64,000 nt of DNA, from NCBI GenBank assembly GCA_905221615.1, contig CAJNDT010002902.1, forward strand, positions 620,001 to 684,000. The letters run 5' to 3'. Shown here in pieces: positions 5,471-35,763 of the stretch. A model generated the notes under the pieces. That model had not been told where the DNA came from. It worked only from the letters and a program-made list of their open reading frames with translations, and searched no databases. This stretch comes from Symbiodinium sp. CCMP2592 (Eukaryota; Sar; Dinophyceae; Suessiales; Symbiodiniaceae). Position 1 is the first letter of the stretch, and the number at the start of each line of letters is the position of its first letter. The position numbers were made by a program, and so were the translations under genes.

Positions 5471-5478
5471 TACGAGTC

Positions 5479-5574: not shown

Positions 5575-5842
5575 CAGTGCACCTGGGTCTTCGTGACAGC
5601 TGCTGGCCCTCATGAGGAATTCCTGGGTCCGTCGTAGCAGCTGGAATCCTCACCCCTTACGGCAGCCCCCTGTGGTGCCAAGATGAGAAAAATGGACAGA
5701 CCCCCTGTCGTATCCAGATTAGACTGGTGAGCCTTGAGTTCCGATTGGTTCCGGAACCCCGAAAGCTTCAGGAATTGAAGATGCATCAAGCATGGCTTGA
5801 TAAACAACAGGTCAGTGGCTGCGAGACGGATGACCAAGTGTG
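5575..5842. repeat. Duplicated block R2, copy a
   Basis: About 268 bases recurring at 8383-8651 in the same orientation with roughly 90% identity by eye. Landmarks are AGTGCACCTGGGTCTTCGTG, CTCATGAGGAATTCCTGGGT and GATGCATCAAGCATGGCTTG. No coding signal is seen. In copy b the block runs straight into a GT microsatellite. Confidence 0.85.
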
Positions 5843-6239
5843 ATCCAGGTAGTTGCAAGCTGGTCTTGTATTCGTTTACTGTGTAACCTGTGGCGGGATC
5901 AGCCAGTGCGAGTACCTGCCAGATTTGATCTGATACGCTCAAGGCAGGGATAACTTGATTGGTTCTTGAAGTGGAACCGCCAGGTCCAACTGAAATCTCT
6001 GCTTTGATGGTGCCGGCATTCGATTCAATCTGTCGCGATGTTATTTCCGTTACTGGGTTTATGCCAGCTTGTAATGCCAGGTTTCATTGCAGGTCTTGAC
6101 CCTTTTCAGATGCGATGGAACCACCTGCTTTTTCTATCCGCAGACCACGTTTTCAGAGTTGCTGCGATGAATTAGACCCTTATAGTGCAATCGGCCCCTG
6201 TGCCAAGATTAGCTAGCCGCCGCTGTGCGAAGGATCAGG
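5843..6239. other. No gene seen
   Basis: Unique-looking sequence without a recognisable motif; the short open frames are not supported. Confidence 0.5.
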
Positions 6240-6935
6240 CATCTGTTTGCGCCTTGCACGAGGCCACGCCCCTAGCCTCAACCTGACGACAATAAGAGGC
6301 CAGGACCCCAGCCTCACTGACGACAGGGGGCCAGGACCCAAGCCTCAACATGACGACAGCAAGAGGCCGGGACCCAAGCCCCACAACTGCAGACTTGCAG
6401 AGAGCGCGAAGCGCCGAACTGCAAGTTGCAAATAAGACAGGAGCAGGAGGCCAAGACCCAAGCCTCACCGACGACAAGGGGTGCGGTTTCAGTCCATCTT
6501 GACGACAACCAGAGGCCAGGACCCAAGCCTCGCAGACGACGACAGGAGGCCAGGACCCAAGCCTCACAGACCTCACCGACGACAAAAGGCCAGGTTTCAA
6601 GCTTCATCTTGACGACAATCAGAGGCCAGGAACCCCAGCCTCATAAACGACGACAAGAGGCCAGGACCCAAGCCTGACAGACGAAGACTTGCAGTGAGCG
6701 CGAAGCGCAGAACTGCAAGCTGTAAACCGAAAAAAGGCAAGAGGCCAAGACCCAAGCCTCCCCGAAAACAGGAAGCCAGGTTTCAGGCTTCAACTTGAAG
6801 ACAATAAAAGGCCAGGACCCAAGCCCCACAGATGACGACAGGAGCCCAGGACCCAAGCCTCAACACAAACGACAGGAGGCCCAAACCCAGGCCTCAGACA
6901 GTAGGAGGCCAGGCCCCAAGCTTCATCGCCTACGT
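6240..6935. repeat. Degenerate tandem array of GGCCAGGACCCAAGCCTCA units
   Basis: About twenty units of roughly 28-35 bases share a core GAGGCCAGGACCCAAGCCTC preceded by GACGACAA. Twice the array is interrupted by a related segment with TTGCAG(A/T)GAGCGCGAAGCGC (about 6390-6435 and 6688-6740), which suggests a higher-order repeat. Open frames on both strands are repeat-derived. Confidence 0.9.
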
Positions 6936-6971
6936 GGCTTTCTCTGTGTGTGGAACTCTGTTACTAAGAGA

Positions 6972-7107
6972 CAACAATGATTTCGGATGCTGTTTATCGA
7001 AACAGCAAAGGAACAAGTTTTCCACTTCAATGTTTCAAGCAGCAGGGGGCTGAAGGCCAGTCACTGGTACCTCAGCCAACGAAGACTACCGGGCGTGGAA
7101 ACGTACC
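6972..7107. repeat. Duplicated block R3, copy b
   Basis: Same landmarks as 5479-5574 (CAACAATGATTT, AACAGCAAAGGAACAAG, ACTACCGGGCGTGGAAACGT) with extra bases inserted. Here R3 is not followed by R2 but by a G-rich stretch, so R2 and R3 are separate units. Confidence 0.75.
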
Positions 7108-8382
7108 GAGGGGGGATGGTGGAGGGTAGGGCGGGAACGGTGGGTTTCAGGGCAAGGGGGAGTGGCGAGCACGGACACGCGAGAGGGGGGGTGGGGTGGG
7201 GGTGAGTGGGGGGGAAACGGGAAGGCACGGATCGGTAGGGCGAGCATGTTGGGGGTTGCAGACCCGAACTCTGGACTGCGGGACTTTGCAAGGTGCTGTT
7301 GCTATGCTTGCCGCATAAAATCGTTCAGTGGGGCCCGCTCTTAAAAGCTCAATGGGGGGTGCGCCCCGCAACTCCCCCGCTTTTTTGTAAATTGCAAACC
7401 CAAACCGTGCAAAGCGAAATCCACAAAAAGAACGTAAACAGACGCTTCTTCACAAAAAGAAGATGCCACTGAAAAAAAAATGCCCACGAAATTGCTTTTT
7501 CGGCTCAAACGCGAAAAACAGAATTGAAAACATGAAAATTTGAGACACATGATCGCCGCATGAAATCGTTCAAGAAATGCCCATTCTTCACGCCTGTTTC
7601 GCTCACGCGAAATCAGAAGAAATTCAAAGACATGAAAATTCAGAGACACACAAAGGCCGCCAAAATCGTTCCAGAGCCCGCTTTTGAAAAAACGCACAAA
7701 TGTAAAATCAGAATCAAGATGAGGTTCGAAACCTAACTCAAATCCAGGTTTCAACCGAGGTTCCAATCCAGTTAAAAAGCCAGGTTCAACTCCAGGTTGG
7801 AAGCCAGGTTGAATCTGACGTTCAACCCAAGTTTGCCCAGGTTGCCGAATCTGATCTTGAAAAAGAAATAGTTTTTCAGGAACCTCGGTTCAATCTGGGT
7901 TCCTGCCCTCCCTGTGGAACCAGCAAGAGTTAAAGCAGCGCACATCTGTCGACCATCAGTTGGCACAACGCGGGTCTGTGTCGAAGATTTACTTTGGATC
8001 TGGAAGAGCTGCAGCAACACAGCTGTGCGACCCAATGAGATCGCGTGAATGGGAACGCTCCTTCATCCTCTGTGCACCCGTGCATCTGTAGGCGCGCTCA
8101 ACTCCCACCGAGTTCAGTGGGCTTTCCTCAAGCAAGCGCGAATGCTTGCTGAGGGTTCTTCCAGAACGTACCTGTGCCTGAGAAAGGCATGGACTTTGAC
8201 TGTTTGGACCAAACTCTGTTGGTCCCATGAGTCCGCCCACAGCTCAAATCTGGAAGTGTTCCAGCTGCTGCATCCACGCTGTTCGGCCACCGGTGCCGCC
8301 GACGCCCACTTTGGGTGCGGACCACTGCAACACACGCGGCTCCAAATGTGGAGTCGAACAATCTGAGAAACAGAGGGGGGAG
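7108..8382. other. No gene seen; G-rich and CCAGGTT-rich spacer
   Basis: Contains a G-rich run (about 7105-7225), an A-rich stretch, and a short imperfect array of (A)GCCAGGTTNNAA(C/T)C words at about 7740-7850. Frames on both strands are short and carry no motif. Confidence 0.5.
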
Positions 8383-8645
8383 AGTGCACCTGGGTCTTCG
8401 TGACAGCTGGTGGCCCTCATGAGGAATTCCTGGGTCCGTCGTAGCAGCTGGAATCCTCACCGCTTACGGCAGCCCCCTGTGGTGCCAAGATTAGCAAAAT
8501 GGACAGACCCCCTGTCGTATCCAGATTCGACTGGTGAGCCTTATAAGTCCCGATTGGTTCCGGAACCCCGAAAGATTCATGCTTTCAAGATGCATCAAGC
8601 ATGGCTTGATAAACAACAGAACACTGGCTGCGAGATGGATGACCA

Positions 8646-8651
<6 letters not shown>
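8383..8651. repeat. Duplicated block R2, copy b
   Basis: Second copy of 5575-5842. Its 3' end, GATGACCATGTGTG, merges into the long GT microsatellite that follows. Confidence 0.85.
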
Positions 8652-8678
<27 letters not shown>

Positions 8679-9197
8679 GGGTGTGGTGTGGGTGGTAGGT
8701 GGTGTGTGTGTGGGTTTGTGTTGTGGGTGTGCGCTGTTGATAGGATGTGGTGGGGTGTGTGTTTGGGTGTTGTTGTGTGGGTGTGGTGTGTGGGGTGTTG
8801 TGGGTGGTGTGCGTGTGTGTGGGGGTGGGGTGGATGGTGGGGGTGGGGGTGGGGGCCGGGGAGGGTGGTCGTGGGGGTGTGGTGTTGGTGTTTGGTGTGG
8901 GTTGTGTGGGTGGGGTTGTGTTTGTGCGTGGGTGTGGGTGTGTGGGTGTGGGTGGGGTGTGGGTGTGTGGGTGTGGGTTGGTGGGTGTGGGTGTGGTGTG
9001 GTGTGGTGTGGGTGTGGGTGTGGTGTGGTGGGGGTGTGGGTGGGGTGTGGGTGGGGTGGGTGGGTGTGTGTGGTGTGTGTGTGTGTGTGTTTGTGGTGTT
9101 TGTGTGTTGTGTGTTTGTGTGTTGGTGTGTTGTGTGTTTTGTGTGTGTTTGTGTGTTTGTGTGTTTGTGTGTGTGTGTGTGTGCGTGTGTGTGCGTG

Positions 9198-9229
<32 letters not shown>

Positions 9230-9694
9230 TAGGTGTGTGTGTGTGTGGGTGTGTGTGTGGGTGTGTGTGTGTGGGTGTGTGTGTGGGTGTGTGTGTGTGT
9301 GTGTGGGTGTGTGTGTGGGTGTGTGTGTGGGTGTGTGTGGGTGTGTGTGGGTGCGGGTGGGGGTGGGGGTGGGGGTGGGGGTGGGGGTGGGGGTGGGTGT
9401 GCGTGTGCGTGTGCGTGTGCGTGTGCGTGTGCGTGTGCGTGTGCGTGTGGGTGTGGGTGTGCGTGTGGGTGTGGGTGTGCGTGTGCGTGTGCGTGTGCGT
9501 GTGCGTGTGGGTGTGGGTGTGGGTGTGGGTGTGGGTGTGGGTGTGGGTGTGGGTGTGGGTGTGGGTGTGGGTGTGGGTGTGGGTGTGGGTGTGGGGGTGG
9601 GTGTGGGTGTGGGTGTGGGTGTGGGTGTGGGTGTGGGTGTGGGTGTGGGTGTGGGTGTGGGTGTGGGTGTGGGTGTGGGTGTGGGTGTGGGTGT

Positions 9695-9742
<48 letters not shown>

Positions 9743-9790
9743 GTGTGTGTGTGGTGTGTGGTGGGTGTGGGTGTGGGTGTGGGATGGTGT

Positions 9791-9849
<59 letters not shown>

Positions 9850-9873
9850 TGTCTGTGTGTGTGTGTGTGTGTG
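8645..9873. repeat. 1.2-kb GT/G-rich compound microsatellite with G-quadruplex potential
   Basis: The tract moves through GTGGT-rich, (GTGC)n, (GTGTGTGG)n, (GGGGGT)n at 9357-9398, (GTGTGC)n, a roughly 190-base run of (GTGTGG)n at about 9507-9698, and back to (GT)n. Runs of GGGTGT and GGGGGT are textbook G-quadruplex formers on the plus strand. The long Cys/Val/Gly-rich frames and the Pro/His-rich frames opposite are artefacts. It is not a telomere: the unit differs from TTTAGGG and is interrupted. Confidence 0.97.
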
Positions 9874-9885
9874 TTTTTGCTTTGG

Positions 9886-9951
9886 TTCCGCTTGCATCAG
9901 TTCACTATTGCTTGCTAGTTCCGCTTGCATCAGGTCACTATTGCTTGCTAG
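9886..9951. repeat. 33-bp direct duplication
   Basis: Two adjacent copies of a 33-base unit beginning TTCCGCTTGCATCAG and ending TTGCTTGCTAG, differing at one base. It lies at the right edge of the GT tract. Confidence 0.95.
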
Positions 9952-12499
9952 TCGGGCAGAGGGAGATGCACAAACATTTACAGCCACAGATGCTATCCTT
10001 CATAAGGAAACAATGACGAGCACACAAGCTAAAGCGACGAGATAAGACTATGCTGTTTGCTTGGTTACGTACATGCGAGCGACTTTTCGTGTTTCGTAAC
10101 AGCCGCTGATTAAGCGGACTACGGCAGCGTATGCATCGGTAAAGAAACGAATGATCAACAACTCGTCGTACAGAATCACATACAGCTATAGCTAAGTGGG
10201 CACCTGAGCGCTGTGGCTGATACCTAGATATAGCCTGATACAGCTATGTATGTGTATAATACCATACATGTGCTTGTGTTGGACCAAGGCATATCTATGG
10301 GCCTATGCGTGTATCTGCGTACTTGCCTATCTGTGCTTCGGGATAACTGCACAAATTTACGAGAGTGTGCGGCTAGAAATAGGCAGAGGGACGGCTAGCT
10401 GCATCCCGTGTCGTTAAATTCATGAGAGAAATAAATGTTCAAACTTTCTCGAGGAAGTGCCAAAAACTGGAAGTACAGTAAGAAAGTTGACACGGGACTG
10501 ACGCCGTTTCCTTGTCTTGGTTAGGTTCATGAGCACCAGGGCTCCAACTTTATCATAGCACTTGCTACACTCAAGTACATACACAGTCTTTAACATATGC
10601 ATGTAGCTGGAGCAGTTCAGGACATGTCCTAGTATGGAAATGAAAGAGCAAGACAGGCGGTGCTGCTGCTGAAACTGCACAGTTCAGCGAATAACACGTT
10701 GGAGACCGTTCAATGTTTTTCAAACCAGTTTTAAACTTCCTGTAGAGCAGAAAGAAAGCCAACAATGCAACGGCGGGAAAGGAAAGAAACCCAAAACAAA
10801 AAGATCAACACCCAATGCCCCATGGAACCCAAAAGATGAAATCAAAACATTCCTGAACTCAATGTCTGCAGCCTTGTTGGCTATAGACTCAAACTAGTGG
10901 CAGTTGTGTGCTTGTGGTTGTTGGCTGTGGTGTTGTGACAAGGCGGTGATGGTTGTTTTCGCATGGCGTTCTGTGATTGCTGTTCTTCGTCGATCTTTGC
11001 TTCTCGGTGCTGTGTGTTTGTGCATGTTGTGTTGTGTGTTGCAGCGCGGTGTGGCTGTTGAATTGTTTTTTTCGGTGCTGGTGATACTCTTAGTCATGTG
11101 CACATATCGGACCGCATATTTGTTCTCCTTGCATTATTGACTCGTCAGTCCTAAGTTAAAAGTTAATCCTTAGGACATGCATGAACGGAGTCTCGCCCTC
11201 GTCTCGGAATAGAAACACGTCGGTCAATAGGACTCAATGCGGGGGGGTACCATGTATATGTCACATATATACCTACATAATCATACATACATAAACACAT
11301 ACGTAGCGTGTAGGACGCGGCGCACCCTGCGTGGTGCAAGGGGAGCCATTGCATCCGGGCGCCAAGCTCTGCATATCTTGTGTCATAGCCTGAGCTTGGA
11401 TGAACTCACGGCGTACACCTGTTCGGAAGTTGCTGAGGTCTGCGCCACCCACACTCAACTCTCCACCCCATTCTGCCAGGCAGATGGCAAAGACCTCGAA
11501 TAATGTAGATGAACACACAAACTGGTAGCTCCGCATTGCACAAGCCGCAATGTGCTGCTGAACTTGCAAGACTCAGCGCATGAACTGCAGTGTTGACATG
11601 GGCTTTGTCTTTGAAAAGATCCTGCTCGCAGCAGACCGTAGAGACATGTCGAGACCAGAGACACATTCACATGCGACTCCTTCAGCACATTGGACCTTCC
11701 AGTAATGCCATGGGGTGCCAAGCCAAAGATGCCGTTCACCTTCGAAGTCTTACCAGCGATCAATCAGTCTGATTGCATCAGCGGCAGGTACTTTCAGCGA
11801 CTGCCTTCATTTGTGGCATCAGTCACTGGACGCTGCTGGTATCTTGCCAACCCGATACGATGTTGCTTCCATTGATCCGTGCCATTACTGAGTGAGATGA
11901 TTGGTCGGAGCTTGGCTTGTCACAGCAGCAGAGCAGCCAAGTAACGACTACATTAAAGCCCACAACATCTCCACTAGTGATACTTCGACTTCATGCGGCG
12001 CACTCCCACCTTCTGGGTGTAGAAAAGCTTCCGCCTGCACTGACTGATGTGCGATGTGTGGTCCCGATCTGCAGAAGGAAACAAACACGATGCGCCAAGC
12101 TTCCGGCTCATCCAGATGGCAACCCAAGGAGGCTTCAACCGGGTGGTTGTCGGCATCAGACTCAGAGATGCAGCAGGTCGGCGAGCCAAGAGTCATGCAG
12201 CATGTAGTTGACAGCTCTTTTCCGAATGCCAGACAGTGTTGCGACATCGCTGAAGCTTCCTGAAGGACAAAGTCGGATCCTTCGAGTATAACGAGACGCA
12301 GCTTGCTCTGCGCCAAATGCTCTTTCATGCCGGTCATCAAGTGCGCGTCTATGGGCAGGTGACATGAGCAAGCTTGCGGCGCTGGGAAAACTGCGTTAAA
12401 GACGTTATTGTCTGACTCTTGTCAGGCTACCTGCCTTTTCATCTACATGCTTCTCAACCTTCATCTGAATGTACTGCAACTTCAGCCAACACAGCATGT
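9952..12499. other. No gene called; one weak minus-strand frame
   Basis: Mostly unrecognised sequence. A minus-strand frame at about 12340-11948 reads through 130 codons (for example KLRLVILEGSDFVLQEAS) and could be an exon, but no family is recognisable and no splice evidence supports it. A GT-rich stretch at 10900-11100 has no gene. Confidence 0.45.
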
Positions 12500-24500: not shown

Positions 24501-25556
24501 ATGATGAAGAAGAGCATCCTCCTTCTTGGTCCATTTCGTGATCTTGCGTGCGAGATTGTTGATACTGCGCAGAAGATCAAAGCGGCAAATGCGCGCGGCA
24601 TAAAGCAATTTCATGAGAATGCTTGCTGCCTGCGGAGCAAGTGCGCCGCGATTAGCCTCGTTGATCTCCTCTTCCTATGGCGCCTTGGGAATAGGTGGAG
24701 GCGGAACAAGCCGACCGTCCTTATCAACAGGCATGGTGTGTCCACACCACGTGCATCGATGGCTTTTACCTGACTGTGCCGGAGCGCGAGCTGGGTGATT
24801 CTTAGTCTCCTCAGCCGGACTCGGCGATGGTACCGTCTTGAATTTTGTCGGATCGAACCCAGTCACGTCGCAGTACTTCTTGACTGTCATGTCCAGGTAC
24901 GTCTCCATGTCGTAGGTAACGGTCTGCACCTTCGTTTTGTCATGCAACGTTGCCTCGCCCTTGGAGATGCGACAACCCAGATACAAACCTAGTGGCGTTT
25001 CTTCTTCCAATCGGAGTTCTTGGCGCAGCATGTCCCAGCCCTTGGGTAGATTCTCTTTGGGTCCTGCCATCTTGAGATCATCCACGTAGATGACAAGTAA
25101 GAGCTTCATTTGCGGGTGGAAATACAATGATGGCCATTCGTCGCCAATCGGCTTGAATCCTACTTTCTGTACCGCGGTATGGCAATGTTGTTCCCACATG
25201 GTTCCTGCGTCAGGATGTCCATACAGAGCTTTGATCAGGCGACACACAGGTCTACGGAATTTATGCCGTTTCGCAGATGGATGCCAGGCTTCATCGGGCA
25301 GTTCAACCCAACATGGAGTTCCCGATAATCTCGCCTGAATGTATGCTTGGATAGCGTCCGCCATCTGGACATCGTTGCCAGGAAGGCATCCGTAATAATC
25401 TGCCCACCGTGAGGCATCAAACGTAGCCGGGGAATTCCCCAAGTCCTGAAACAATGCGGCTTCCATGTTCTGGTCTTTGACCTGATCACCGAGTAGTACA
25501 CCTCGCCCTTTGAACTTCCTGGCGGGATCGTCCTCTTTGAGCTGATAGTTCTTCTC
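21594..25556 (-). CDS. Copia pol, 3' part: RT, RNase H and a long unassigned tail
   Basis: Continues the copia frame after the DIRS insertion. RT: NDVQMADAIQAYIQA, LIKALYGHPDAGTMWE and the catalytic LLLVIYVDDLKMAG (YVDD intact). An in-frame TAG (24675-24677) follows PPIPKAP; the frame then runs on without a break into ANRGALAPQAASILMKLLYA. RNase H shows FADADYAGC, STPEAEIVA and the FYDDNQT block typical of Ty1/copia. About 740 further residues to RQPQLRNN have no copia counterpart that I know. They include LFVASLLRSGAG and FSLDMPSSCSCWSWPEL, which faintly resemble Rossmann/methylase-like modules of other dinoflagellate retroelements; this is a weak guess. Confidence 0.85.
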
Positions 25557-25774
25557 GTGCACTAGCTCCTATATCCCACCACCATCCCCGGAACTCCACC
25601 AGGACGATAGTAGTGCGAAAGTAGATAGCTAGCGAGCTAGCCGAGCGACGACCAGACGGACAAGCAACACAGCTAGCACGGACGTTCTTTTGTCTGGAGT
25701 GGCAACTATCCCAGGTTGCCTGGAGATAACTGATAGCCTTCGGCTATCTGATAGCCTTCGGCTATCTATCCCCA
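25557..25774 (-). repeat. DIRS repeat A (outer copy)
   Basis: Matches A' at 26024-26223 except that A holds two tandem copies of the 18-base unit GATAGCCTTCGGCTATCT (25732-25767) where A' has one. It contains perfect hairpins: CCAGG-TTG-CCTGG (25711-25723) and GATAGCC-TTC-GGCTATC (25732-25748 and 25750-25766), as well as a doubled GCTAGC palindrome (25628-25641). It carries the sense 3' end of the element. Confidence 0.93.
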
Positions 25775-25791
25775 GGGTGGGCAGGGTGGGT

Positions 25792-26025
25792 ACTTCAAAA
25801 TTACCCCCCCTGATGGGGGACTTTATCCAGAATGGCCACGGTCACACACCGTCGTAGCCATTCCAAGTCACTGCTATCCTGTCTTCGCATGTCAGAGGCA
25901 ACTCTCCTGCGAGCGACGATAGCGAACGAAACTTCGTTTCTAGCGAAGCTACCTTCGATAGCTTCGAGTAGTAATAGGTAAGCTAGCACACATAGTCGTA
26001 ACTCGTTCCTCGTCACGAGGTACGT
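25792..26025 (-). repeat. DIRS repeat B (internal copy)
   Basis: 234 bases identical by eye to B' (35530-35763). It contains five perfect short hairpins: CCCCC-TGAT-GGGGG (25806-25819), ACGGT-CACAC-ACCGT (25838-25852), GAAAC-TTC-GTTTC (25928-25940), CGAAGCTA-7 nt-TAGCTTCG (25944-25966) and CCTCG-TCA-CGAGG (26008-26020), the last next to the crossover site. The 71-codon open frame inside both copies is unlikely to be a gene. A 17-base G-rich spacer separates A from B. Confidence 0.93.
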
Positions 26026-26223
26026 GCACTAGCTCCTATATCCCACCACCATCCCCGGAACTCCACCAGGACGATAGTAGTGCGAAAGTAGATAGCTAGC
26101 GAGCTAGCCGAGCGACGACCAGACGGACAAGCAACACAGCTAGCACGGACGTTCTTTTGTCTGGAGTGGCAACTATCCCAGGTTGCCTGGAGATAACTGA
26201 TAGCCTTCGGCTATCTATCCCCA
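26024..26223 (-). repeat. DIRS repeat A' (inner copy)
   Basis: 200-base copy of A with a single GATAGCCTTCGGCTATCT hairpin. Its junction with B, ...GAGGTAC-GT-GCACTAG..., shares the GT with both outer junctions and is what a joined circular intermediate would be expected to contain. Confidence 0.92.
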
Positions 26224-26239
26224 CGCATCGCCACTCAGG

Positions 26240-29200
26240 CTACCAGGGATCTAGCTTTCTGGCCTTACGGCTAAACTTGGACACCCTATCCGGGGTCCCT
26301 CGCTTTCGCGTGCCTAGCTCCTGGTAGAAGCTATCTGCATGCGCGAGTAGCCGGCCAAGAACACGCCACTGGAATTCCTCTCCTTTCAGATCTATCCTCT
26401 GAGAGGGATCGAATTCCTTGAACTCCTCGTTTGTAAGGTCATCCGCTAGCTGGTTGATGTCTCTCCGTATCCACTGGAGCTGTAGCTCACAGTTTTTCTG
26501 GGATAGCTCTTCTGCTATCTCCATTAAAACTAGCATGGAGGGATACTTGGTCGTCATAGCCTTCTTCACAAGTGCCTCATTGGACTTGTTATCCGTATAG
26601 CCGCGGATGGCCACTCGCGAGGTCTTCCTATCCTCGCCCTCGGGGACCCAGAGACGTATCCCCACGAGGGTCGCTAGCAGTTCTAGCGCAGCTATCACTT
26701 TCTTGGGGTCGCCTTTGGCAAAGGCCCACGGAGCCCAGGCCCTATCCACTTCTAAGGAAAACCAGGGACCTGGCTTCCCTCCGGAAATCTCCAGGAAGCC
26801 ACCTATCCAGGCCCTATCGGACTCAGCTTTGGCATCCGTGAAAAAGCTCAGTGGAGGTAGCCCGGCGTAGAGAGTCACTGGACGCTGTAGCCTCTCTCCT
26901 TGGTCAAGCTTGTCGGCTAGCCACCGCATCAGCACCCGGAGCATCGTCGGGATGATGAGGTAGCCGGACTTCCCTTGAATGGCTGCGCTCCACGCGTGGA
27001 GCGGCCCTAAGAAGGGCCTCTGCCAATCCAAGGCTATCGCAGCAAAGCCTAGCCGACCTAGCCCCTGCTGCATCTCCTTGGCCGTGACTTTGCCGAAGGT
27101 CACCTTGTCGTTTAGCCACGCCGATAGCCAGGACGCCCGCTTCTTGGACATCCCTAGCCTGTAGGAGGAGTACTCTGTCTCCATTCCCAGCCACTCCACC
27201 CTATAGCCACCACGAGTCTTCGCCCACTTGAAAGGATATCCCAGAACAGAGAGGAAAAGGTAGCTCAACGGGATACCCTTCCTCCCCTCCGTTCCTATCC
27301 CCAGGGCCTCGAGGTCATTGGCATATAGCAGGAGGTCGATGGGATAGCCGGGGCCCAACAGATGATGGGTTGCCCGTAGCCCACATGCGGCTATCCGGGT
27401 CCACCAGTAGCTAGCCGGCGAGAGTCCGAACGTGCCCACTTTGTTGACGTAGACGATCTGGCTATCCGGGTCCCCGGGGATCGTCTCCTCGGTGTCTATC
27501 TGGCAGCCCATGAAGCCGTGCTCGCTAGCCTGGTGTTTGTATCTCCGGTGGGCCTTCGAGATATCCCCCACGACCGAAAAGGCAATCTCGCCACAGCGTA
27601 TCAGCTCTCGGAGGATTTGCTTCTTTTCTCTAGCCCCCGGCGCCCGGATCTTATCCCGACAGCGTATCCGGTGGTTAACCCGGACGCCGTGGGTCGCGTC
27701 GTGGATTATCCGCTTCTTGTCCTTCTCCTCGTCCTCGACTATCACGGCCAGGGAGGCGATAGCCCGGTCCTCGCCGAACCTCGCCTTGAACTCGCCGAGG
27801 GTCATCCTCTCCATGAGGCCTTCCTCGACGTCCTCGTCGAACTTAGCCCGCACAAAGTCCCTGTGGTCGCTAACCGAGGAATAATTCGGAACCCATGCTA
27901 GCGCCGGCTCCCAAGGGGCGTTGTCTAGCCTCCAAGAGGATTGCTCCTCGAACACGTGCGGTGTTCTGGGTAGCCCCTCCAATATCCCAAGTGGGAGTCC
28001 CTCCTCGGCCCGACGGAGGAAGTCCCTATCCGGGTCGCCAGCCGCCTCGAGGATTGCACGAAGTAGCCGTAGACGAAGGGGCTGCCCAGGAGGAATATCC
28101 AGTAGGCCAGGTTCGCTGAGGTCCTGACCTTCTATCCAAACTTGCAGGAGTTGCAGTAGCTCTTCGTGTAGTTGGCTATCCCGGACGAGCTTGCAGGCCG
28201 ACTCGCCTCCCATAGCCATTCGGAAGGCCTCCTTTTCTAGCTCGTTCTCGGATCCCACTCGCCTGGTTACCATCTCCCGGATCTTAGCCCTCAGCCAGTC
28301 CCAGGACTCGCCCGCGGCATGTCCACGAGAGTGTCGGGGCCAGCGCCCAGGAGAGCATAGCCCGCCACCGTCGTGGAATTCCTTTATCCCGTCGTTTTGA
28401 TGGCATCGGCGGGGGGGTCCCGTGCCACCATGTAGCCGTGGGCCCTCTGGTTGGTTTGTAACATAGTCGAGGTCGCCAGAACTCGCCTTATCCTGCACAG
28501 TCGGTACCCCCTCTCCGGAGGCAGTCGGAGCAGTAGCCGTGCAGGTTGCCAGGGCCAACTGTGCTAGCCATCGGCAGAAGTTCGAGGGCCACTCGCCAAG
28601 CGTCTCCTTAGCCAGCATGGGGCTCTGCGGCGTCGATGAGGTAGCCGCTTTCGGCAAGGGGCCCAGATAGTAGCCATTGTTGTCGAAAGTGGGGAGGCCT
28701 TCGTGCACGGTAGCCGGCATTTCCAGAGGTGTCTTCAGTAGCAGTCGTGTCGGTTTCGCCGAGGGTGCCCCGAAGTTATCCAGGTGCAGGGCCACCGAAC
28801 GTAGCCCGAGGCCAACTAGCCGTGCATGAGCCTCCCATTGCCACATGCTGGCCGGTCGCCGGCCTTTGTGGGGGCCAGCCGGCATAGCCCCCAGGTCTTC
28901 TGGCTGCTCCAGGACGAAGAAGGTAGCCGAGGAAACCGCAGCACTAGCTATTTCAAAAGAAAAATCAGCAAAAATGTTGCCAAGAATAGCCCGGTCTCTT
29001 TCCTTGGCCGTGAGTGTAGCCAATCCTCTGGGCTCGTCGAAGCTTCGGACTGGCCGGGGACCTTTACGGTTAGCCGAGCTCGCCCTAGAGAACGTCGCCA
29101 CAGGGGGAGACATAGCCACGATGTCGTAGTGGCCCGATTGAACTTTGTGAAGGTACTTCGCCCTCTCCTTGGAAGTAGCCAGGTCAATGGGCGGACTTCT

Positions 29201-29377
29201 CGCCAGATCCACACAAGAGATATCGATGTCGAGCCCGAAGGAAGAAACTAGCCGGCGGAGGTGGCTTTGGAAGCTGCCTAGCCTTTCTCTTCCCGAGAAG
29301 AGGTAGAGAGCCTGTAGCCGCCGGTGTGCAGGTGTCGCCTCAGGTGTAGCCGATGTAGCCGGCTCAGGCACCGGTAG
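26240..29377 (-). CDS. DIRS pol: methyltransferase-like domain, RT, RNase H
   Basis: About 1045 codons in the gag frame, directly after the gag UGA (29378-29380). There is no ATG before the first domain, so readthrough is the likely route of expression. Residues about 20-160 resemble a cytosine-C5 methyltransferase: YLFSGRERLGSF (motif I), YDIVAMSPPVATFSRA (motif IV position, but PPV rather than catalytic PPC), and FFVLEQPEDLG (near motif VI). RT follows from about 560, with VVGDISKAHRRYKHQ and an active site reading LLLYANDLEALG: the YxDD box has Asn for the first catalytic Asp. RNase H shows FFTDAKAES, ALELLATLVG and YTDNKSNEAL. It ends at a TAG. The RT defect, if real, makes this copy inactive. 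Confidence 0.8.
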   Translation of the reverse strand, partial: LPVPEPATSATPEATPAHRRLQALYLFSGRERLGSFQSHLRRLVSSFGLDIDISCVDLARSPPIDLATSKERAKYLHKVQSGHYDIVAMSPPVATFSRASSANRKGPRPVRSFDEPRGLATLTAKERDRAILGNIFADFSFEIASAAVSSATFFVLEQPEDLGAMPAGPHKGRRPASMWQWEAHARLVGLGLRSVALHLDNFGAPSAKPTRLLLKTPLEMPATVHEGLPTFDNNGYYLGPLPKAATSSTPQSPMLAKETLGEWPSNFCRWLAQLALATCTATAPTASGEGVPTVQDKASSGDLDYVTNQPEGPRLHGGTGPPRRCHQNDGIKEFHDGGGLCSPGRWPRHSRGHAAGESWDWLRAKIREMVTRRVGSENELEKEAFRMAMGGESACKLVRDSQLHEELLQLLQVWIEGQDLSEPGLLDIPPGQPLRLRLLRAILEAAGDPDRDFLRRAEEGLPLGILEGLPRTPHVFEEQSSWRLDNAPWEPALAWVPNYSSVSDHRDFVRAKFDEDVEEGLMERMTLGEFKARFGEDRAIASLAVIVEDEEKDKKRIIHDATHGVRVNHRIRCRDKIRAPGAREKKQILRELIRCGEIAFSVVGDISKAHRRYKHQASEHGFMGCQIDTEETIPGDPDSQIVYVNKVGTFGLSPASYWWTRIAACGLRATHHLLGPGYPIDLLLYANDLEALGIGTEGRKGIPLSYLFLSVLGYPFKWAKTRGGYRVEWLGMETEYSSYRLGMSKKRASWLSAWLNDKVTFGKVTAKEMQQGLGRLGFAAIALDWQRPFLGPLHAWSAAIQGKSGYLIIPTMLRVLMRWLADKLDQGERLQRPVTLYAGLPPLSFFTDAKAESDRAWIGGFLEISGGKPGPWFSLEVDRAWAPWAFAKGDPKKVIAALELLATLVGIRLWVPEGEDRKTSRVAIRGYTDNKSNEALVKKAMTTKYPSMLVLMEIAEELSQKNCELQLQWIRRDINQLADDLTNEEFKEFDPSQRIDLKGEEFQWRVLGRLLAHADSFYQELGTRKRGTPDRVSKFSRKARKLDPW

Positions 29378-29380
29378 TCA
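29375..29380 (-). promoter_or_regulatory. UGA-CUA stop-codon readthrough context between gag and pol
   Basis: The sense strand reads AAC-UGA-CUA-CCG. The stop closes the gag-like ORF and the frame continues without a further stop into pol. UGA followed by CUA is a well-established high-readthrough context in several viral and cellular genes. The next in-frame ATG lies only after methyltransferase motif I, so independent initiation would lose that domain. Readthrough itself is inferred. Confidence 0.65.
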
Positions 29381-30610
29381 GTTGGCCGCTGTCGACGTCG
29401 ACGGCGTAGCCGTGCCGGGGCAGTTGATAGCCGAATGCGGTCCCCGACACTTCGTGCAGACATGCACGAAGTGGCACTTATCCCCTTTCTTGCAGCCACC
29501 TTTCAGATTAAATCGAAAACATATCGGCTTGTCATCCTCGGTGCGGTGGAAGGTAGCGGTCTTAGCCTTCTTGTTGCTATCCTTGCCGTCCTTGCCCTTG
29601 CCTCTGCCCTTGCCCTTCTTGTTGGGCTTAGCCGGCGGGGTGTTGGTGCTATCCCAGTTCCAGGGCTGCGGCCTTTTAGCACAGAGGGACAACGGAGTCG
29701 TGAAGTGCCGCTCCTTGGTAGCCGCGTCCTTCCAGGACTGGACTAGCGCGTCCGCGAAGGCTATCCCCTTGAGGACCATCTGCTTGTAGGCCTGTTTCCG
29801 GATAGCGTTCTCGTAGGATAGCACCAGGGTCCACGGGGGAGCAAGACTTCCGCTAGCCTCGTTGGACCGTAGCCCATAGCAGAAGTCGCCGAGCAGATAG
29901 TCTTTGTATTTCTCAAAGAGCTGGAAGTCGATATCCTTGAGTTCTGCTCGCCCTGGATGCTGGAGGCCTATCATGAGAAGTGCATTTTGCATGACTGTTA
30001 GCCGTAGCCGTAGTTGCTCCGGTCCGGATGGCATCGCCCCTTTCGAGGTAGCCTTCTTGAGCACGAGGGCGGTGCCCTTGCTATCCCACTGGGGAACTAG
30101 CACATCCGGGTCTATCTCGTCTCTGGACAGCACCTCGTTCAGGGGCTCCGCCCTGAACTCGCCCGTCTCTAGCTCGTGCAGCTTTCGCTCAATATATTCC
30201 TTAGCCGGAATATGCTTATCCTCGGGCTCGCCAAACTTCTGTGAGAAGGACTGGCGCATAGCCATGTATTCCGTTTGGGGGATGGGCTTAGCCCATTCCC
30301 GGACCTCGCTAGCCGCTTCTCTATCCGCCTGCTCGCGGGTTCTGGCCTGCGCGGCTCTCCATGCAACCACGAAGGCAGCCGCTAGCGCCCTGTTTGTTAG
30401 TGAGCTTTCTGGCTCTATCGAGAAGTCCTTGGCTAGCACCGACTTGAGGTCGGCTTCGTCCTTGAAACTCGCCGAAAACTTCGCTATCGTGTCTATCCCG
30501 GCTTTGAACAAGGTAGCCTGGGAGGTATCCGGGACCCGATTCTGGGTCAAAAGGTAGCGAAAATCCGTGGAGCCCTTTGCTAGCTCCGCTGGGTCGGGCA
30601 AGGAAGCCAT
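29378..30610 (-). CDS. DIRS gag-like protein with CCCH and CCHC fingers
   Basis: 410 codons from the ATG at 30608-30610. The first 300 residues are unassigned and alpha-helical in character. A Lys/Gly-rich basic stretch (KGKGRGKGKDGKDSNKKAK) leads to CFRFNLKGGCKKGDKCHFVH, a C-x8-C-x5-C-x3-H finger, and then CTKCRGPHSAINC, a C-x2-C-x3-H-x4-C knuckle. The pairing suggests nucleic-acid binding during particle assembly, as in Gag proteins. It stops at a UGA in frame with pol. Confidence 0.75.
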   Translation of the reverse strand: MASLPDPAELAKGSTDFRYLLTQNRVPDTSQATLFKAGIDTIAKFSASFKDEADLKSVLAKDFSIEPESSLTNRALAAAFVVAWRAAQARTREQADREAASEVREWAKPIPQTEYMAMRQSFSQKFGEPEDKHIPAKEYIERKLHELETGEFRAEPLNEVLSRDEIDPDVLVPQWDSKGTALVLKKATSKGAMPSGPEQLRLRLTVMQNALLMIGLQHPGRAELKDIDFQLFEKYKDYLLGDFCYGLRSNEASGSLAPPWTLVLSYENAIRKQAYKQMVLKGIAFADALVQSWKDAATKERHFTTPLSLCAKRPQPWNWDSTNTPPAKPNKKGKGRGKGKDGKDSNKKAKTATFHRTEDDKPICFRFNLKGGCKKGDKCHFVHVCTKCRGPHSAINCPGTATPSTSTAAN

Positions 30611-30966
30611 TCTAGATTTAGCCCGCCAACGGGCTAGCTACCTTTCGGCTACTGTCGTACTTGAAATCAAAAGCTCTAGCCATGTGGCCGTTCAGCAGGG
30701 CTTTCCCCCCCCTAGCCGGAGAGATGGGAAGGAAGGAGTATCAACCCGAGACCCCGGGCCCCCGTGCCCCCCCCCGAGACCCGAGAGGCCGACCCCCCCC
30801 CCCCGTCCGAGGTTTCACGTATCTTGGGAAAACCTAGCCTCGCACTCTCTTCTTTCTGGCAAACGGAGGCACTAGCCGACATGAAGTGAAAGCGCGAGGT
30901 CCACACACTATCCGCTATTTTCGTCACTAGCCGCAAGTCTGGGAGATCTAGCCATACGACCGTGCT
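30611..30966 (-). other. DIRS spacer upstream of gag
   Basis: No ORF. It contains long C runs on the plus strand and the conserved intercistronic motif at 30716-30750; the TAGCC words continue through it. Confidence 0.6.
30716..30750 (-). promoter_or_regulatory. Conserved intercistronic motif, copy 1
   Basis: Plus strand CCGGAGAGATGGGAAGGAAG followed by GAGTAT and, shortly after, CCCGAG. The sense strand is therefore a pyrimidine-rich tract. It recurs at 33127-33160 in the only other long spacer of the element. It lies about 110 bases before the gag start codon. A trans-splice acceptor tract or an internal promoter/processing signal is possible; neither is proven. Confidence 0.5.
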
Positions 30967-32445
30967 TTAGCCCGGACCCTTTCGGCCCCTGCCAGCTCCC
31001 TTAGCCGGGCCACCATAGCCAGACGGGGGCCGACAGCTATTGCACGTATGGCCTCTATCCCCATGCGTATCCAGGCAGTACCACATCCTTTTGTTGCACT
31101 GCTCTAGCCGACAGTGATCACAGACCACTATACATCTGAAGATAGCCCCGGCAGGCTCCCATCGGCCTACCCCAGGGGTAGCCCCCTGGGGCCTGCACAA
31201 TATCCATCCCTGTTCCGGGATCGCTTCTGCTAGCTCTTTTGCGTAGCCGGACCGGGTGCTAACCGCGATGAAGTCCTCATCCTCTAGCTTGTATATCCAG
31301 TTGGGGTCGTGTATCGCCCCTTTGCCGCTGACATCGCGGCCTCTATCCGACAACTGCGATAGCCTTCTATCCTGGCGACCGCCCTTCTCGTAGCTCCCCA
31401 GGGGCCACTGGGCCCTAGCCACATATAGCCAGGTCTGATCGATCATGCCGCTATCCGGGCCGAGTGGTCGCCCCTTGGCTTGACTAGCCACTGGCGGGGG
31501 CGCCATTATCCGGTGCACCACCTCGGGTTCTTCGCGAAGTAGCCGTTCGGTGTCCAGGTTGATGTTCACCGCGGCTCCCTGCTGGAGCGCGGGCCTCTCC
31601 GGAGCTATCCGGCCGTCACCGGCCATAGCCTCCCACTGGGCCTCGTTGTATCGGCCCGCTCCTAGCCTTCTGTCCAGCGGGTGGCTGCTATCCGGGTGGA
31701 TGTAGCCACGGTCGCTATCCCCACCGCGTCCTTTGGTGGTGCTCTTAGCCTGCGGCCTCAAGGGCGGGAAGGGATCGTATCCCGGCTCGCCCTTGCGTGG
31801 CCGCCGCTGCTGCTGTGTATCCTGGTTGCTATCCGGACCGTCCTGAAAGGTGCCTATCCGGAAGACCTCCTCCATCCTAGCCACATAGGCCGGGACGTCC
31901 GCAGGCGGGCCACGGTAGCCCTGCATGCATCTAGCCAAAAACTGCTTCAGGCTCTCGCCCTGGGCAGGGTACTCTGTACTCGCCCTTAGCGGTGTAGCCG
32001 TGGTCTCTGCCGCGGCTGCCCTAGCCTGCTGTAGCCCCGGACCCGGGTTGACGACCTCGGCCGGATCTAGCCCAGCCGAGAACGGCAGGGTGGTAGCCGT
32101 TTCTTCTTTATCCGCTGCACTCCCCTGCCGCAGCTTGTTCTTAGCCTTGGACTCTTGGACCGTCGGCGGGTCCCTAGCCGGCTTCTTGGGCCTCGCCGCT
32201 GTGCTATCCTCTGTGCTGGCCTCCTCTGCCCCAGGATGGGGCTCCTCTTGCCTAGCAACAGGGGTAGCCGTGCCGCGGACCTCCGCCTCTAGCTCCTTGA
32301 GCTTAGCCATCATCTCGTGTAGCATGTCTAGCCGTTCGGGTGGCGGCCCGGCGCTAGACCAGGTAGCCTCCGGGGCCTCCCCCTGCCACGGTGTAGCCTC
32401 CAGCTCGTTATCCGTGACGCTATCCTCCTCCAGGGTCTCTCCTGG
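30967..32445 (-). CDS. DIRS accessory ORF, 492 codons, Cys-rich C-terminus
   Basis: The frame runs from the codon after a UGA (32446-32448) to 30967; the first ATG is at 32325 (MLHEMMAKLKELE). The N-terminal half is polar and low in complexity. The C-terminal part is compact, with IVVCDHCRLEQCNKRMW and HTCNSC, a Cys/His cluster likely to bind zinc. It is in the same frame as the 66-codon ORF upstream, from which only the UGA separates it. Function unknown. Confidence 0.6.
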   Translation of the reverse strand, partial: PGETLEEDSVTDNELEATPWQGEAPEATWSSAGPPPERLDMLHEMMAKLKELEAEVRGTATPVARQEEPHPGAEEASTEDSTAARPKKPARDPPTVQESKAKNKLRQGSAADKEETATTLPFSAGLDPAEVVNPGPGLQQARAAAAETTATPLRASTEYPAQGESLKQFLARCMQGYRGPPADVPAYVARMEEVFRIGTFQDGPDSNQDTQQQRRPRKGEPGYDPFPPLRPQAKSTTKGRGGDSDRGYIHPDSSHPLDRRLGAGRYNEAQWEAMAGDGRIAPERPALQQGAAVNINLDTERLLREEPEVVHRIMAPPPVASQAKGRPLGPDSGMIDQTWLYVARAQWPLGSYEKGGRQDRRLSQLSDRGRDVSGKGAIHDPNWIYKLEDEDFIAVSTRSGYAKELAEAIPEQGWILCRPQGATPGVGRWEPAGAIFRCIVVCDHCRLEQCNKRMWYCLDTHGDRGHTCNSCRPPSGYGGPAKGAGRGRKGPG

Positions 32446-32646
32446 TCAGTGCGGTCGTAGCCCGGCCAACTGCCGGTTCTTCTCTATCCTCTGCTCCAGG
32501 TATCTAGCCTCGGTGGTGGACAGGCTAGCCTCAAGCTCCGCAGAGATATCGTCCCAAGACCTAGCCCCTTGGAACTTGAGTAGCCTGGCAGATAGCCGGC
32601 CGCCAGGCTGTATGCTAGCTCCCTCCTGGCACTCGGCTAGCCTCAT
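32446..32646 (-). CDS. DIRS small ORF, 66 codons, in frame with the next ORF
   Basis: ATG at 32644-32646 overlaps the stop of the preceding ORF as ATGA. It encodes a charged helical peptide (EARYLEQRIEKNRQLAG) and stops at a UGA followed by CCA, after which the same frame runs on for 492 codons. It could be the N-terminus of a 559-codon protein if the UGA is read through or is a recent Trp-codon loss. Confidence 0.5.
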   Translation of the reverse strand: MRLAECQEGASIQPGGRLSARLLKFQGARSWDDISAELEASLSTTEARYLEQRIEKNRQLAGLRPH

Positions 32647-32834
32647 GTCCTAGCCTTTCGCACTAGCTGGAGAAGCTCGTGCTGCTTATCCAGACTTAGC
32701 CGATCGTATATCTGTTCGGCCAAGCTAGCCGGGTCAGTCTCTAGCCAGTCCTCTAAGAGGCGTAGCACTTCTATCCGTTGCGCCTGGACGCTAGCCGACT
32801 CAGTCTGGTCTGCCCAGCTGGGGGCAGTAGCCAT
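32643..32834 (-). CDS. DIRS small ORF, 63 codons
   Basis: ATG at 32834; encodes MATAPSWADQTESASVQAQR and a Leu-rich helical remainder. It shares a 4-base ATGA with the next ORF, an arrangement that permits termination-reinitiation. Family unknown; it may be a small helical partner protein. Confidence 0.5.
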   Translation of the reverse strand: MATAPSWADQTESASVQAQRIEVLRLLEDWLETDPASLAEQIYDRLSLDKQHELLQLVRKART

Positions 32835-33223
32835 GTGCCGCTAGCCGGCCCGAAGGCACGCAGGCTCGCCCACCTAGCGTGGGCTCTCCAGAAAAGCTGG
32901 TGGTCCGTTACTCCACCCTAGCCACAGTAGCCGCGGCAAGTGCATTTGTGCCGTGCCCTAGCCCACAAGTGCACACTCAGCCGGACATGTGCGCATGCAG
33001 CTTAGCCTGCCTAAGAACCTCGCAGCCTACGTCCTAGCCAGCAGACAAGACAGCAAGTGCAACAACGTGATTCTCTCCTCTCTCTCTCTTCTCTCCCCTT
33101 CTTTCTCCCCCCTGGGCCCACCGCCCCCGGAGAGATGGGAAGGAAAGAGTATATCCCGAGAGGCCCCCCCGGACGTATCCCCCCGTTGTCCAGCCCCGCT
33201 GCTTTCCCGGCGTTTCTATCCCT
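32835..33223 (-). other. DIRS spacer between recombinase and small ORFs
   Basis: No ORF. A pyrimidine-rich (plus-strand) stretch at 33070-33130 leads into the second copy of the intercistronic motif. TAGCC words persist. Confidence 0.6.
33127..33160 (-). promoter_or_regulatory. Conserved intercistronic motif, copy 2
   Basis: CCGGAGAGATGGGAAGGAAA, then GAGTAT, then CCCGAG on the plus strand, matching 30716-30750 at 25 of the first 26 bases. Both copies are bordered by long C runs and each sits in a spacer preceding a coding block, about 290 bases upstream of the 63-codon ORF here. Confidence 0.5.
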
Positions 33224-33973
33224 TCAGGCAAAAGGCGGTCCCCAGCCGAACGGAATAGCCGGTAACGGTGCTATCGGCAACTGGGGTACTATCCCCGGCG
33301 GTGCTCCCTGCAGCTCTGCTGCTGGGACCTCTCCGAAATCTTCTTCCTCTCCCGGCTCCGGCTTCTGGTCGCCGGTGCTAGCCTGAGAGGTGTCGCTATC
33401 ACCAGACGGGGGCTCTTCGCCTCGGCCTTTCGGCCAGCATAGCCTACAGACATGCGTGTACTGGTTGGGTTCGGGCCTCGCCGAAAACTCTTGGGAGTTC
33501 TTAAATATCCTACGGCGGCCCATCCAGCACCCGGCCTGGCCCCCCTTGTGTAGCCTGTACTTCTTCCCTGGAAGCTCAACTATGATATAGCTCGTGCACC
33601 TAGCCTTCTTAAGGAGCTGCCTCGGCCGGTTCCGGTTGGGTTCCGGTCCCAGCTCCGGCTCACTAGCCGAGGAGTCGGGTCTATCTTCGGGAGGATCGCT
33701 CGCCACGACTTCTTCAGGTATCCCCGGACCAGCCACCATCTCCACGATGCGCTCGCTAGCCCACTCTCGTCGCAGCTCTCCCGATAGCTTCTCAGCTTCC
33801 TGCTCGCTAGCCTTGCCAGTCCGGAAAAGCCAGCCACCAAGATCGCCGGCTATCTCCCTCTCGTCTAGCTGCTGTTCTCGGTCCCGAGCCCTAGCCGCCT
33901 CCGCATAGATAGCCTGGAGTCGGGCGACCCTTCCGCCATAGGAGCGGATGTAGGTATCCGAGCCCTCGGGCTT
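33224..33973 (-). CDS. C-terminal part of the DIRS recombinase ORF, after an in-frame UGA
   Basis: 249 codons in the same frame as the recombinase, directly after its UGA and without an early ATG. It begins KPEGSDTYIRSYGG, which has the form of the last motif of tyrosine recombinases and contains the probable nucleophile Tyr. A charged helical region follows (REQQLDEREIAGDLGG), then a Cys/His module: CTSYIIVELPGKKYRLHKGG, GCW, and YTHVCRLCWPKG. The last part is proline-rich. Most likely this was one protein with the upstream part. Confidence 0.65.
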   Translation of the reverse strand, partial: KPEGSDTYIRSYGGRVARLQAIYAEAARARDREQQLDEREIAGDLGGWLFRTGKASEQEAEKLSGELRREWASERIVEMVAGPGIPEEVVASDPPEDRPDSSASEPELGPEPNRNRPRQLLKKARCTSYIIVELPGKKYRLHKGGQAGCWMGRRRIFKNSQEFSARPEPNQYTHVCRLCWPKGRGEEPPSGDSDTSQASTGDQKPEPGEEEDFGEVPAAELQGAPPGIVPQLPIAPLPAIPFGWGPPFA

Positions 33974-35559
33974 TCAGCGTCCTAGCATATCTCTATCTGC
34001 CGGCGGAATCGGCTTTAGGCTCAGCCCGGTGGGTAGCACTGCTCTCTCACTGTGCTCCGACCAGTAGCCTCGGGCAACCGTCGGGATCCCCACCATAGCC
34101 AGCAGCCCTGCTGTAGCCACCATCGCATCTGCGTAGGTAGCCATCTTCTTCTCCAGGGCGCCTCTCTCGCCTAGCCTTGGCATGAGATAGTCCCGCTGGT
34201 AGCCCGCGTGGTTCTTTAGCAGGTCGAAGCCCGCCTGTAGCCAGCCAGGGTCCTCGAAGTAGGCTCTCTCCGAGATGCATACGGGTAGCTCTCGTATGCG
34301 CCTGTTAGCCCCGGTGGTTTTGGTCCGCCGCAGGATGGTGGATAGCCGACCTTCCACCATAGCCAGTTCGTTTGGGACCATAGCCTGGAGGTCCGACCAT
34401 CGCAAGCTGCCCCAAACCTTTAGGAGCTTAGCCCAGGCCCAAGCTCTCCAGCCGACGGCCACAGTTGTATCCAGGACCAGGCGCTCCCACCTAGCCAGGA
34501 TAGCCGCAGGATATCGGGGGGCTCGCCGCGTCCAGGGCGCCTTCCAGGATAGCCTCTCGACGACCGTATCCTTGATCGCCCACGCTATCCTGCCTGAGGT
34601 AGCTCTCGACTCGGTCGCCCATTCCGCGACCCTCTCTATCCAGCTGATGGCCTTGAGGATCGCCTCGGGGACTGTTCGCCCGCAGGGCTCGTCGCCCCTA
34701 GCCATGATGTAGTCGGCCAGGTCGGCCGGTAGCCCAGGGGGGCGTCCACTCTTAGCCTCCCGTAGCCATAGCCGCCATCTCACGTGTATCGAGACGTAGC
34801 GCTTGAGAGTGCTAGCCCGGGTTTTCCCCGCTAGCGCCAACACCGCTCTATCCGGGTCCAGGCACCCCTGTAGCTTCTTCAGCACCGGCGCCTCGCACAA
34901 TTCTAGCTCTTCCTTGAGCTTGATAGCCCAGGTTGCTTGTAGCCTTTCCTCCCTAGCCTGCGCCAGGGAGCCCTCGTTGACCAAGCGCTTCTGCCTATCC
35001 CCTTTCGGGGGCTCCGGCTCGCTATCTTCCTGAAGGTCGATGCCTTCGATCGCCGGCCGCTTGCTGAGGTTAGCCCAAGCTAGCGAAGTTGCTCTGTATC
35101 CCGACGATCTCTCCACCAGGTCTCTAGCTTCCTGGGCCTCTTGTATCCACAGGTAGATCGAGTCGCCGATGTACTCGTCGTAGCCAACGCCCAGCTCCTC
35201 AGCCACCTGGTGCCCAATATCTTCCGCGTCCTCTAGACCGAGGGTAGCCAGCTCAAGCACACCGAAGCCCCGCGACGCCAGATGCTCATGGCATCTATCC
35301 AGCACCGCACGCTTCTGCACAAGAGCGCTATCCAACAAGGACGGAAGACCGATGGGGGTCCCTATCCCTCCGGAGGGAGTAGCCGGCCCAACGTCCTGCT
35401 CTTCCGGCTCAGCCCTGGACAACCGTAGTAGCCGGAGACTGTGGGCTAGCCGTCCGCGAAGCAGAAGGGGAGCGCGGGGAGGCCATTCTCGCTTGGCTAG
35501 ATAGCCAAGTTCCCCTTCTATCCCCCTCCACTTCAAAATTACCCCCCCTGATGGGGGAC
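33974..35559 (-). CDS. Tyrosine recombinase (DIRS type), truncated by UGA before its catalytic Tyr
   Basis: Open from 35559 inside repeat B'. No ATG occurs in its first half; a TTG at 35534-35536 is the first near-cognate start. The core-binding part includes LAGKTRASTLKRYVSIHVRW. Catalytic motifs are KVWGSLRWSDLQAM (first Arg), RRTKTTGANRRIRELPV, and YWSEHSERAVLPTG (H-x-x-R). It ends PADRDMLGR-UGA exactly where the GRW motif should continue to the nucleophile Tyr, which lies in the frame just beyond. It would catalyse integration of a circular intermediate. As it stands the protein is inactive unless the UGA is read through. Confidence 0.8.
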
Positions 35560-35763
35560 TTTATCCAGAATGGCCACGGTCACACACCGTCGTAGCCATT
35601 CCAAGTCACTGCTATCCTGTCTTCGCATGTCAGAGGCAACTCTCCTGCGAGCGACGATAGCGAACGAAACTTCGTTTCTAGCGAAGCTACCTTCGATAGC
35701 TTCGAGTAGTAATAGGTAAGCTAGCACACATAGTCGTAACTCGTTCCTCGTCACGAGGTACGT
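35530..35763 (-). repeat. DIRS repeat B' (outer copy, sense 5' end)
   Basis: 234 bases matching B (25792-26025), with the same five mini-hairpins. The recombinase frame begins inside it. The outer edge ...CCTCGTCACGAGGTAC-GT then meets copia sequence ATATCAG. Confidence 0.93.

Follow-up and report, generated by a model that had tools for sequence, protein, structure and literature searches.

The DNA analysed here, a 64,000-nucleotide (nt) stretch of Symbiodinium sp. CCMP2592 that we refer to as the window (contig CAJNDT010002902.1, positions 620,001 to 684,000), contains a DIRS-like retroelement whose sense strand is the minus strand of the window. The borders of the element were set by its terminal repeats (Table 1), which form two exact pairs in the order A-coding-B-A-B, the split-repeat arrangement of DIRS elements. 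Along the sense strand, the coding part presents a tyrosine-recombinase-like (YR) open reading frame (ORF), a 452-amino-acid (aa) ORF, a Gag-like ORF and Pol. The same A-coding-B-A-B arrangement was found in two sister families of the same genome (L031 and L032), and the layout agrees with that of published SymbioDIRS elements (PMC5890265). The whole element carries a polar array of short words, which are evenly spaced, protected at synonymous sites and written in different dialects by different families.

Table 1. Features of the DIRS-like element (window positions; strand relative to the window).
Feature	Position	Strand	Details
Whole element and word field	25556-35763	-	GG[CA]TA 253 sense/30 antisense; G[CA]TA 358 sense/120 antisense
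Terminal repeat A, 5' copy	35530-35763	-	234 nt, identical to 25792-26025
Terminal repeat A, 3' copy	25792-26025	-	234 nt, exact match to 5' copy
Terminal repeat B, inner copy	26023-26216	-	194 nt, identical to 25556-25749
Terminal repeat B, outer copy	25556-25749	-	194 nt, exact match to inner copy
YR ORF	33974-35536	-	Stop breaks the frame upstream of the putative catalytic tyrosine
In-frame ORF after the YR stop	33224-33973	-	SDTYIRSY stretch and zinc-binding-like tail; continuous in L031
Spacer with words	32446-33223	-	19 GGCTA and 6 GGATA in 778 nt
452-aa ORF, Cys/His-rich tail	30967-32325	-	No Pfam match at E 1
Gag-like ORF, candidate word reader	29378-30610	-	zf-CCCH E 8.6e-4, just below the curated cut-off
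CCCH finger and adjoining CCHC knuckle, Gag-like ORF	29420-29521	-	Eight ligands invariant in 33/33
Pol ORF: methyltransferase-like N-terminus (lacking the motif-IV cysteine), reverse transcriptase, RNase H-like end	26240-29371	-	

Over positions 25557-35763, GGCTA occurred 167 times on the sense strand and 19 times on the antisense strand (first-order Markov expectation 23.2; flank-scaled expectation 8.0), and the corresponding values for GGATA were 86 and 11 (13.2; 5.8). Both words exceeded the dinucleotide expectation approximately 7-fold and were 15- to 21-fold more frequent than in the flanking DNA; the more than tenfold excess claimed in an earlier note on this DNA therefore held against the flanks but not against the dinucleotide expectation. 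The mean spacing of GG[CA]TA (39.8 nt) agreed with the density of one word per approximately 39 bases given there, and the predominance of one strand was also borne out by the counts in Table 1. GGCGA (TCGCC on the plus strand), which had likewise been described as raised, was found 49 times in the sense and 4 times in the antisense direction (expectation 21.5; flank-scaled 13.8) but topped the maximum of synonymous shuffles in pol only, and it did not stand out clearly as a gap filler between words (z 0.7).

In 5-kb tiles the words reached z 12.5-22.7, and the highest value elsewhere, the simple-repeat tiles at 1-10000 aside, was 7.0 (16 CGAAG, tile 60001). Word counts per kilobase climbed at ~25.5 kb and dropped at ~35.7 kb, and the nested copia DNA was free of words. 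The field was thus confined to the element, as had been proposed, but the limits originally drawn for it were too narrow, since the terminal repeats carry words too. In particular, the first G[CA]TA was located 39 nt inside the 5' copy of repeat A (37-39 nt in all three families), and the first GG[CA]TA of the window element lay ~147 nt inside it (35613-35617). The true core was also broader than noted, namely G[CA]TA with a preferred preceding G. The bases adjoining GGCTA showed little preference, and GGATA followed by G was mildly over-represented (47/86). Additionally, the sense strand was poor in one-mismatch neighbours of the words and in TA outside the words.

The words are overlaid on the protein code. 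When GGCTA and GGATA were each compared in five ORFs with 500 synonymous shuffles per test, the observed count exceeded the shuffle maximum in nine of the ten tests, the lone exception being GGATA in the 249-aa ORF (4 observed, maximum 5). The shuffles thus failed to reproduce the word counts. Between 61 and 81% of the sites at which GG[CA]TA would be neutral for the protein were occupied by it in the four ORFs examined (pol 71/116, gag 25/34, 452-aa ORF 44/54, YR 43/70). CTA, which the earlier note described as an otherwise rare codon forced by the words, was used for Leu in 37 of 115 cases in pol compared with 15 of 135 in a copia ORF, and the words continued through non-coding spacers such as that listed in Table 1. 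The presence of words in all codon phases was confirmed for GGCTA in three of the five ORFs, but phase 0 (GGC TAn), which was the rarest GGCTA phase throughout, was missing in the other two.

The spacing of the words was more even than expected by chance. The coefficient of variation (CV) of the GG[CA]TA gaps was 0.63, compared with 0.98 under random placement; gaps shorter than 12 nt numbered 12 (63 expected), and gaps longer than 72 nt numbered 22 (41 expected). For GCTA in L032 the CV was 0.48, with 26 short gaps (103 expected) and only 2 long gaps (30 expected), while frequent 4-mers used as a control gave a mean spacing CV of 1.05. A null based on protein constraint, in which words were placed by random choice among the permitted places, gave CVs of 0.79 in pol, 0.77 in YR and 0.60 in the 452-aa ORF, and the observed values were 0.47, 0.52 and 0.48, respectively. 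L031 showed the same short-range exclusion, yet its CV was 1.47 because of one 935-nt stretch without words. The pair correlation was depressed up to ~20 nt and flat further out, and no long-range period was seen. We also found that only 17% of the 65 non-canonical GCTA of the window family lay less than or up to 12 nt from a canonical word, compared with 39% of all places; taken alone, this avoidance would suggest that they are weaker members of the array.

Two side observations concern the gaps. The wordless stretch of L031 (3614-4549) lies within a word-dense element, and other DNA may have inserted there. Separately, sense-strand G runs were present in spacers of two families (30705-30804 in the window; from sense position 2318 in L032), where several of the longest gaps between words coincided with them.

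The two sister families, whose Pol proteins are 61-65% identical, had equally polar fields of GCTA without GATA. L032 contained 328 sense and 48 antisense GCTA, preceded by C in 153 cases, A in 76, G in 55 and T in 44, and L031 contained 221 and 35, preceded by C in 65, T in 60, A in 52 and G in 44. In the window family G preceded 167 of 237 GCTA and 86 of 121 GATA. Sense and antisense counts of GATA were 121/42 in the window family, 9/20 in L032 and 24/12 in L031. The dialects were accordingly GG[CA]TA in the window family, a C-rich NGCTA in one sister and GCTA with any preceding base in the other. Two further loci (L033 and L035) resembled L031 and L032, and L034, whose Pol is 88% identical to that of the window, resembled the window family. 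The positions of the words turned over between families: of the 71 words of the window Pol, 14 shared their position with a word of L031, against an expectation of 1.7, and for L032 the figures were 16 and 2.2.

Comparison with L034 revealed selection on the words. The two sequences were 83.5% identical, and in the region compared (26000-30700, which holds 96 of the 253 words) 75 of 96 words were still words, compared with 221 of 487 permuted pentamers (p 3e-9); 71 of 96 were unchanged when only exact identity was counted. Of the fourfold degenerate sites, 18 of 107 had changed where they lay inside words, whereas 222 of 537 had changed elsewhere (p 7e-7), and this protection persisted after removal of CpG contexts (13/88 and 127/358; p 1e-4). 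Antisense words showed no fourfold protection in the same comparison (2/9 inside, 138/437 outside). Exact retention of GGATA (30/33) ranked first among 48 pentamers. Fourfold sites in words were also protected between L032 and L031, the pair with GCTA in common, where changes affected 44 of 107 positions in words and 278 of 424 outside (34/87 and 162/280 without CpG; p 0.003). Between the window family and L032, which differ in dialect, no protection was seen (48/84 and 239/390; 34/67 and 136/243 without CpG). Taken with the synonymous shuffles, the retention of words and the fourfold protection in a related copy upheld the central claim of the earlier note, a polar and frame-independent signal at the level of the nucleic acid that is confined to the element.

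We propose that the element itself encodes the reader of this polar array, a protein that binds single strands and is most likely Gag, and that this protein coats and selects the element's own RNA, an explanation to which we give an even chance. The polarity suggests that a single strand is read, and the different dialects within one genome suggest that the reader is carried by each family. The words would form one recognition array selected as nucleic acid, in which each G[CA]TA, at its best GG[CA]TA in the window family, would bind a single molecule of a sequence-specific protein whose target is sense RNA or sense-strand cDNA. With sites every ~28-40 nt, and with both crowding and long gaps avoided, Gag could coat the entire transcript, and the coating would allow the RNA of the family to enter particle assembly and reverse transcription in preference to host messages and the RNA of sister families. 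A dialect drifting with its reader would isolate families. We infer RNA as the level, Gag as the reader and packaging as the purpose. Among the mechanisms offered earlier, packaging fitted best and strand-switch guidance in reverse transcription found no specific support.

Gag is the strongest candidate reader. Its C-terminus consists of a Lys/Gly-rich linker followed by the CCCH finger and the CCHC knuckle, through which it would most likely act; the invariance of their ligands was assessed in 33 Gag sequences, namely that of the window, those of two loci and 30 taken from the 120 matches listed. A Gag profile searched against the PDB at E<=1 found, apart from Ty3 Gag (0.035), only MBNL1, in two sequences (0.72 and 0.82); all of these matches are weak. 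The fingers of MBNL1, for which a crystal structure with CGCUGU exists, recognise GC steps when RNA is single-stranded (PMC3103431). At Gag position 389, the window family, whose dialect is deviant, has Arg, as does its 88% relative L034, whereas Phe is found in at least 90% of the aligned sequences. Arg389 together with the deviant dialect is a lead on Gag as the reader and not a proof.

Several results weigh against this proposal. Spacing within gag itself was no more even than under the protein-constraint null (CV 0.83 observed, 0.76 null), and the longest GG[CA]TA gaps (172 and 120 nt) fall there. Antisense TAGC avoided canonical words as non-canonical GCTA did (18% of 39; z 3.6), and G tracts and GAGA also lay away from them; the gap-filling test is therefore not specific. 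Exact retention of GGCTA alone between the window and L034 (41/63) ranked only 18th of 48 pentamers. The copy-level test of selection was borderline (p 0.05; p 0.32 without three divergent copies). In predicted RNA structures, the words were no more accessible than permuted pentamers (p 0.20 and 0.54). With regard to Gag, the fingers of L031 and L032 differ despite their common GCTA, only two specificity classes are available for correlating dialect with Gag, and Cys/His-rich tails also occur in other proteins of the element.

A different protein of the element might read the words on DNA or cDNA, a possibility that we consider unlikely; the candidates are Pol, through its methyltransferase-like domain, the recombinase and the 452-aa protein. 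Sense GCTA/GATA corresponds to TAGC/TATC on the other strand, and the word field extends through the terminal repeats. The Pol of published SymbioDIRS elements carries a DNA methyltransferase (PMC5890265), and L032 and L031 retain the SPPC motif and match Pfam DNA_methylase weakly (0.035 and 0.35, respectively; no Pfam match in the window copy). However, the motif-IV cysteine, conserved in at least 90% of 36 aligned Pol proteins, was replaced by Val in 26 and by Ala in 1 of the 27 family copies (out of 30, L001-L030) in which the motif could be matched, and was also absent from L034, although the words persist; the methyltransferase-like domain is therefore less likely to be the reader. A reader of double-stranded DNA also leaves the polarity unexplained by itself.

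A host factor that reads the words for licensing against silencing, splicing suppression or RNA stabilisation seems doubtful. The core GCTA is common to all three families, as one host reader would set. Such a reader would be expected to impose a single word, yet GATA is used in the window family and not in L032, the preceding base differs strongly between families, and the nested copia DNA lacks words; the host-protein array offered earlier is disfavoured because families within one genome use different dialects. A neutral origin through context-dependent mutation bias, reverse-transcription bias or codon usage is very improbable: the scarcity of one-mismatch neighbours and of TA outside words makes some compositional pressure possible, and the copy-level test was only borderline, but among 831 single-copy variants in 30 copies those creating a word were not in excess (10 observed, 9.3 expected) and 74 destroyed one (87.2 expected), and even spacing, the excess over synonymous shuffles and fourfold protection are unexpected from a bias.

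Returning to a Gag-read array, we compared it with known systems. Bacterial DNA uptake sequences are short dispersed words that occur on both strands, turn over in position, form dialects and are read during uptake. The likeness to them drawn in the earlier note extended to dispersal, turnover and dialects but not to strand symmetry, as the words of the window element are polar and lie inside a mobile element. Packaging signals of single-stranded RNA viruses are degenerate and presented in structure. Such dispersed signals (e.g., in MS2) comprise many sites over the coding and non-coding genome, as here, and are thought to be read by the coat protein on one strand. The many sites of the element were likewise selected beyond protein coding, as judged from shuffles, spacing and fourfold sites. 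By analogy, the array may work like dispersed packaging signals, but it consists of exact 4-5-nt words at high density (253-358 per 10.2 kb), has dialects, belongs to a retrotransposon and showed no structural preference, the unpaired probability of its words equalling that of permuted pentamers. If the reader proves not to be coat-like, the array would stand further from known systems.

The periodic packaging motifs of phage phiX174 are overlaid on all genes and spaced along a single-stranded genome, and altering them without amino-acid change caused a packaging defect in cis (PMC13386984). They form 60 loose segments matching the capsid symmetry, in contrast to the sharp words and lack of a long-range period found here. 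SymbioDIRS-Dnmt3 shares with the window element the A-coding-B-A-B order and a dinoflagellate host, and its tyrosine recombinase and the methyltransferase-like domain of its Pol have putative counterparts here; the motif-IV cysteine is absent here, and a word field is not mentioned in the available part of that report (PMC5890265). Muscleblind shares the CCCH finger with Gag and reads GC steps of single-stranded RNA, but it is a splicing factor with four fingers (PMC3103431), and its likeness to Gag is weak (E 0.72).

No precedent for such a word array was found in the literature searched. Little is settled about how a retroelement tells its own transcript from the messages of the host, and a single local signal is what most work has looked for. 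An array that is under selection, evenly spaced and written in dialects would spread the solution over many sites and could be read straight from sequence, and it would amount to a second code over every ORF of the element. Tentatively, and at slightly less than even confidence, each family may write its own address over its whole RNA in a polar, footprint-spaced dialect that co-evolves with an element-encoded nucleocapsid, a change of dialect isolating families. To our knowledge, a self-recognition code of this kind is known from no other mobile element. Natural specificity variants would help to map the reader.

The other proteins of the element were recognised to different degrees. The YR frame is uninterrupted in L031 and L032 and split by an in-frame stop in the window copy. 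Its R, K, H and R, which we take to be catalytic residues, were invariant in 21 of 21 aligned relatives; a YR profile gave weak Cre matches in the PDB (0.45-0.81) that ranked below FkpA, and no recombinase family of Pfam was matched by the 21 members at E 0.5. The reverse transcriptase of Pol was assigned by homology, RVT_1 being matched by 3 of the 36 relatives in the alignment (the best at 1.9e-7) but not by the window Pol itself at E 0.01.

Searching the genome (1.098 Gb, 5383 contigs) gave 3354 candidates, of which 44 were scored and 42, including the copy in the window and some partial copies, belonged to the same family with 98-100% protein identity to the Pol query. Close protein relatives with an organism named in the database came from Symbiodinium or Cladocopium. 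The element is surrounded by copia DNA, in which one ORF, matching RVT_2, extends to 25562 and a 2333-aa ORF on the opposite side reaches 35687. Elsewhere in the window, GT-rich and TGGGT-rich repeats dominate positions 1-10000 (201 and 269 GTGTG in two 5-kb tiles), and the repeats probably account, as artefacts, for the long ORFs that overlap one another at 8410-10045.

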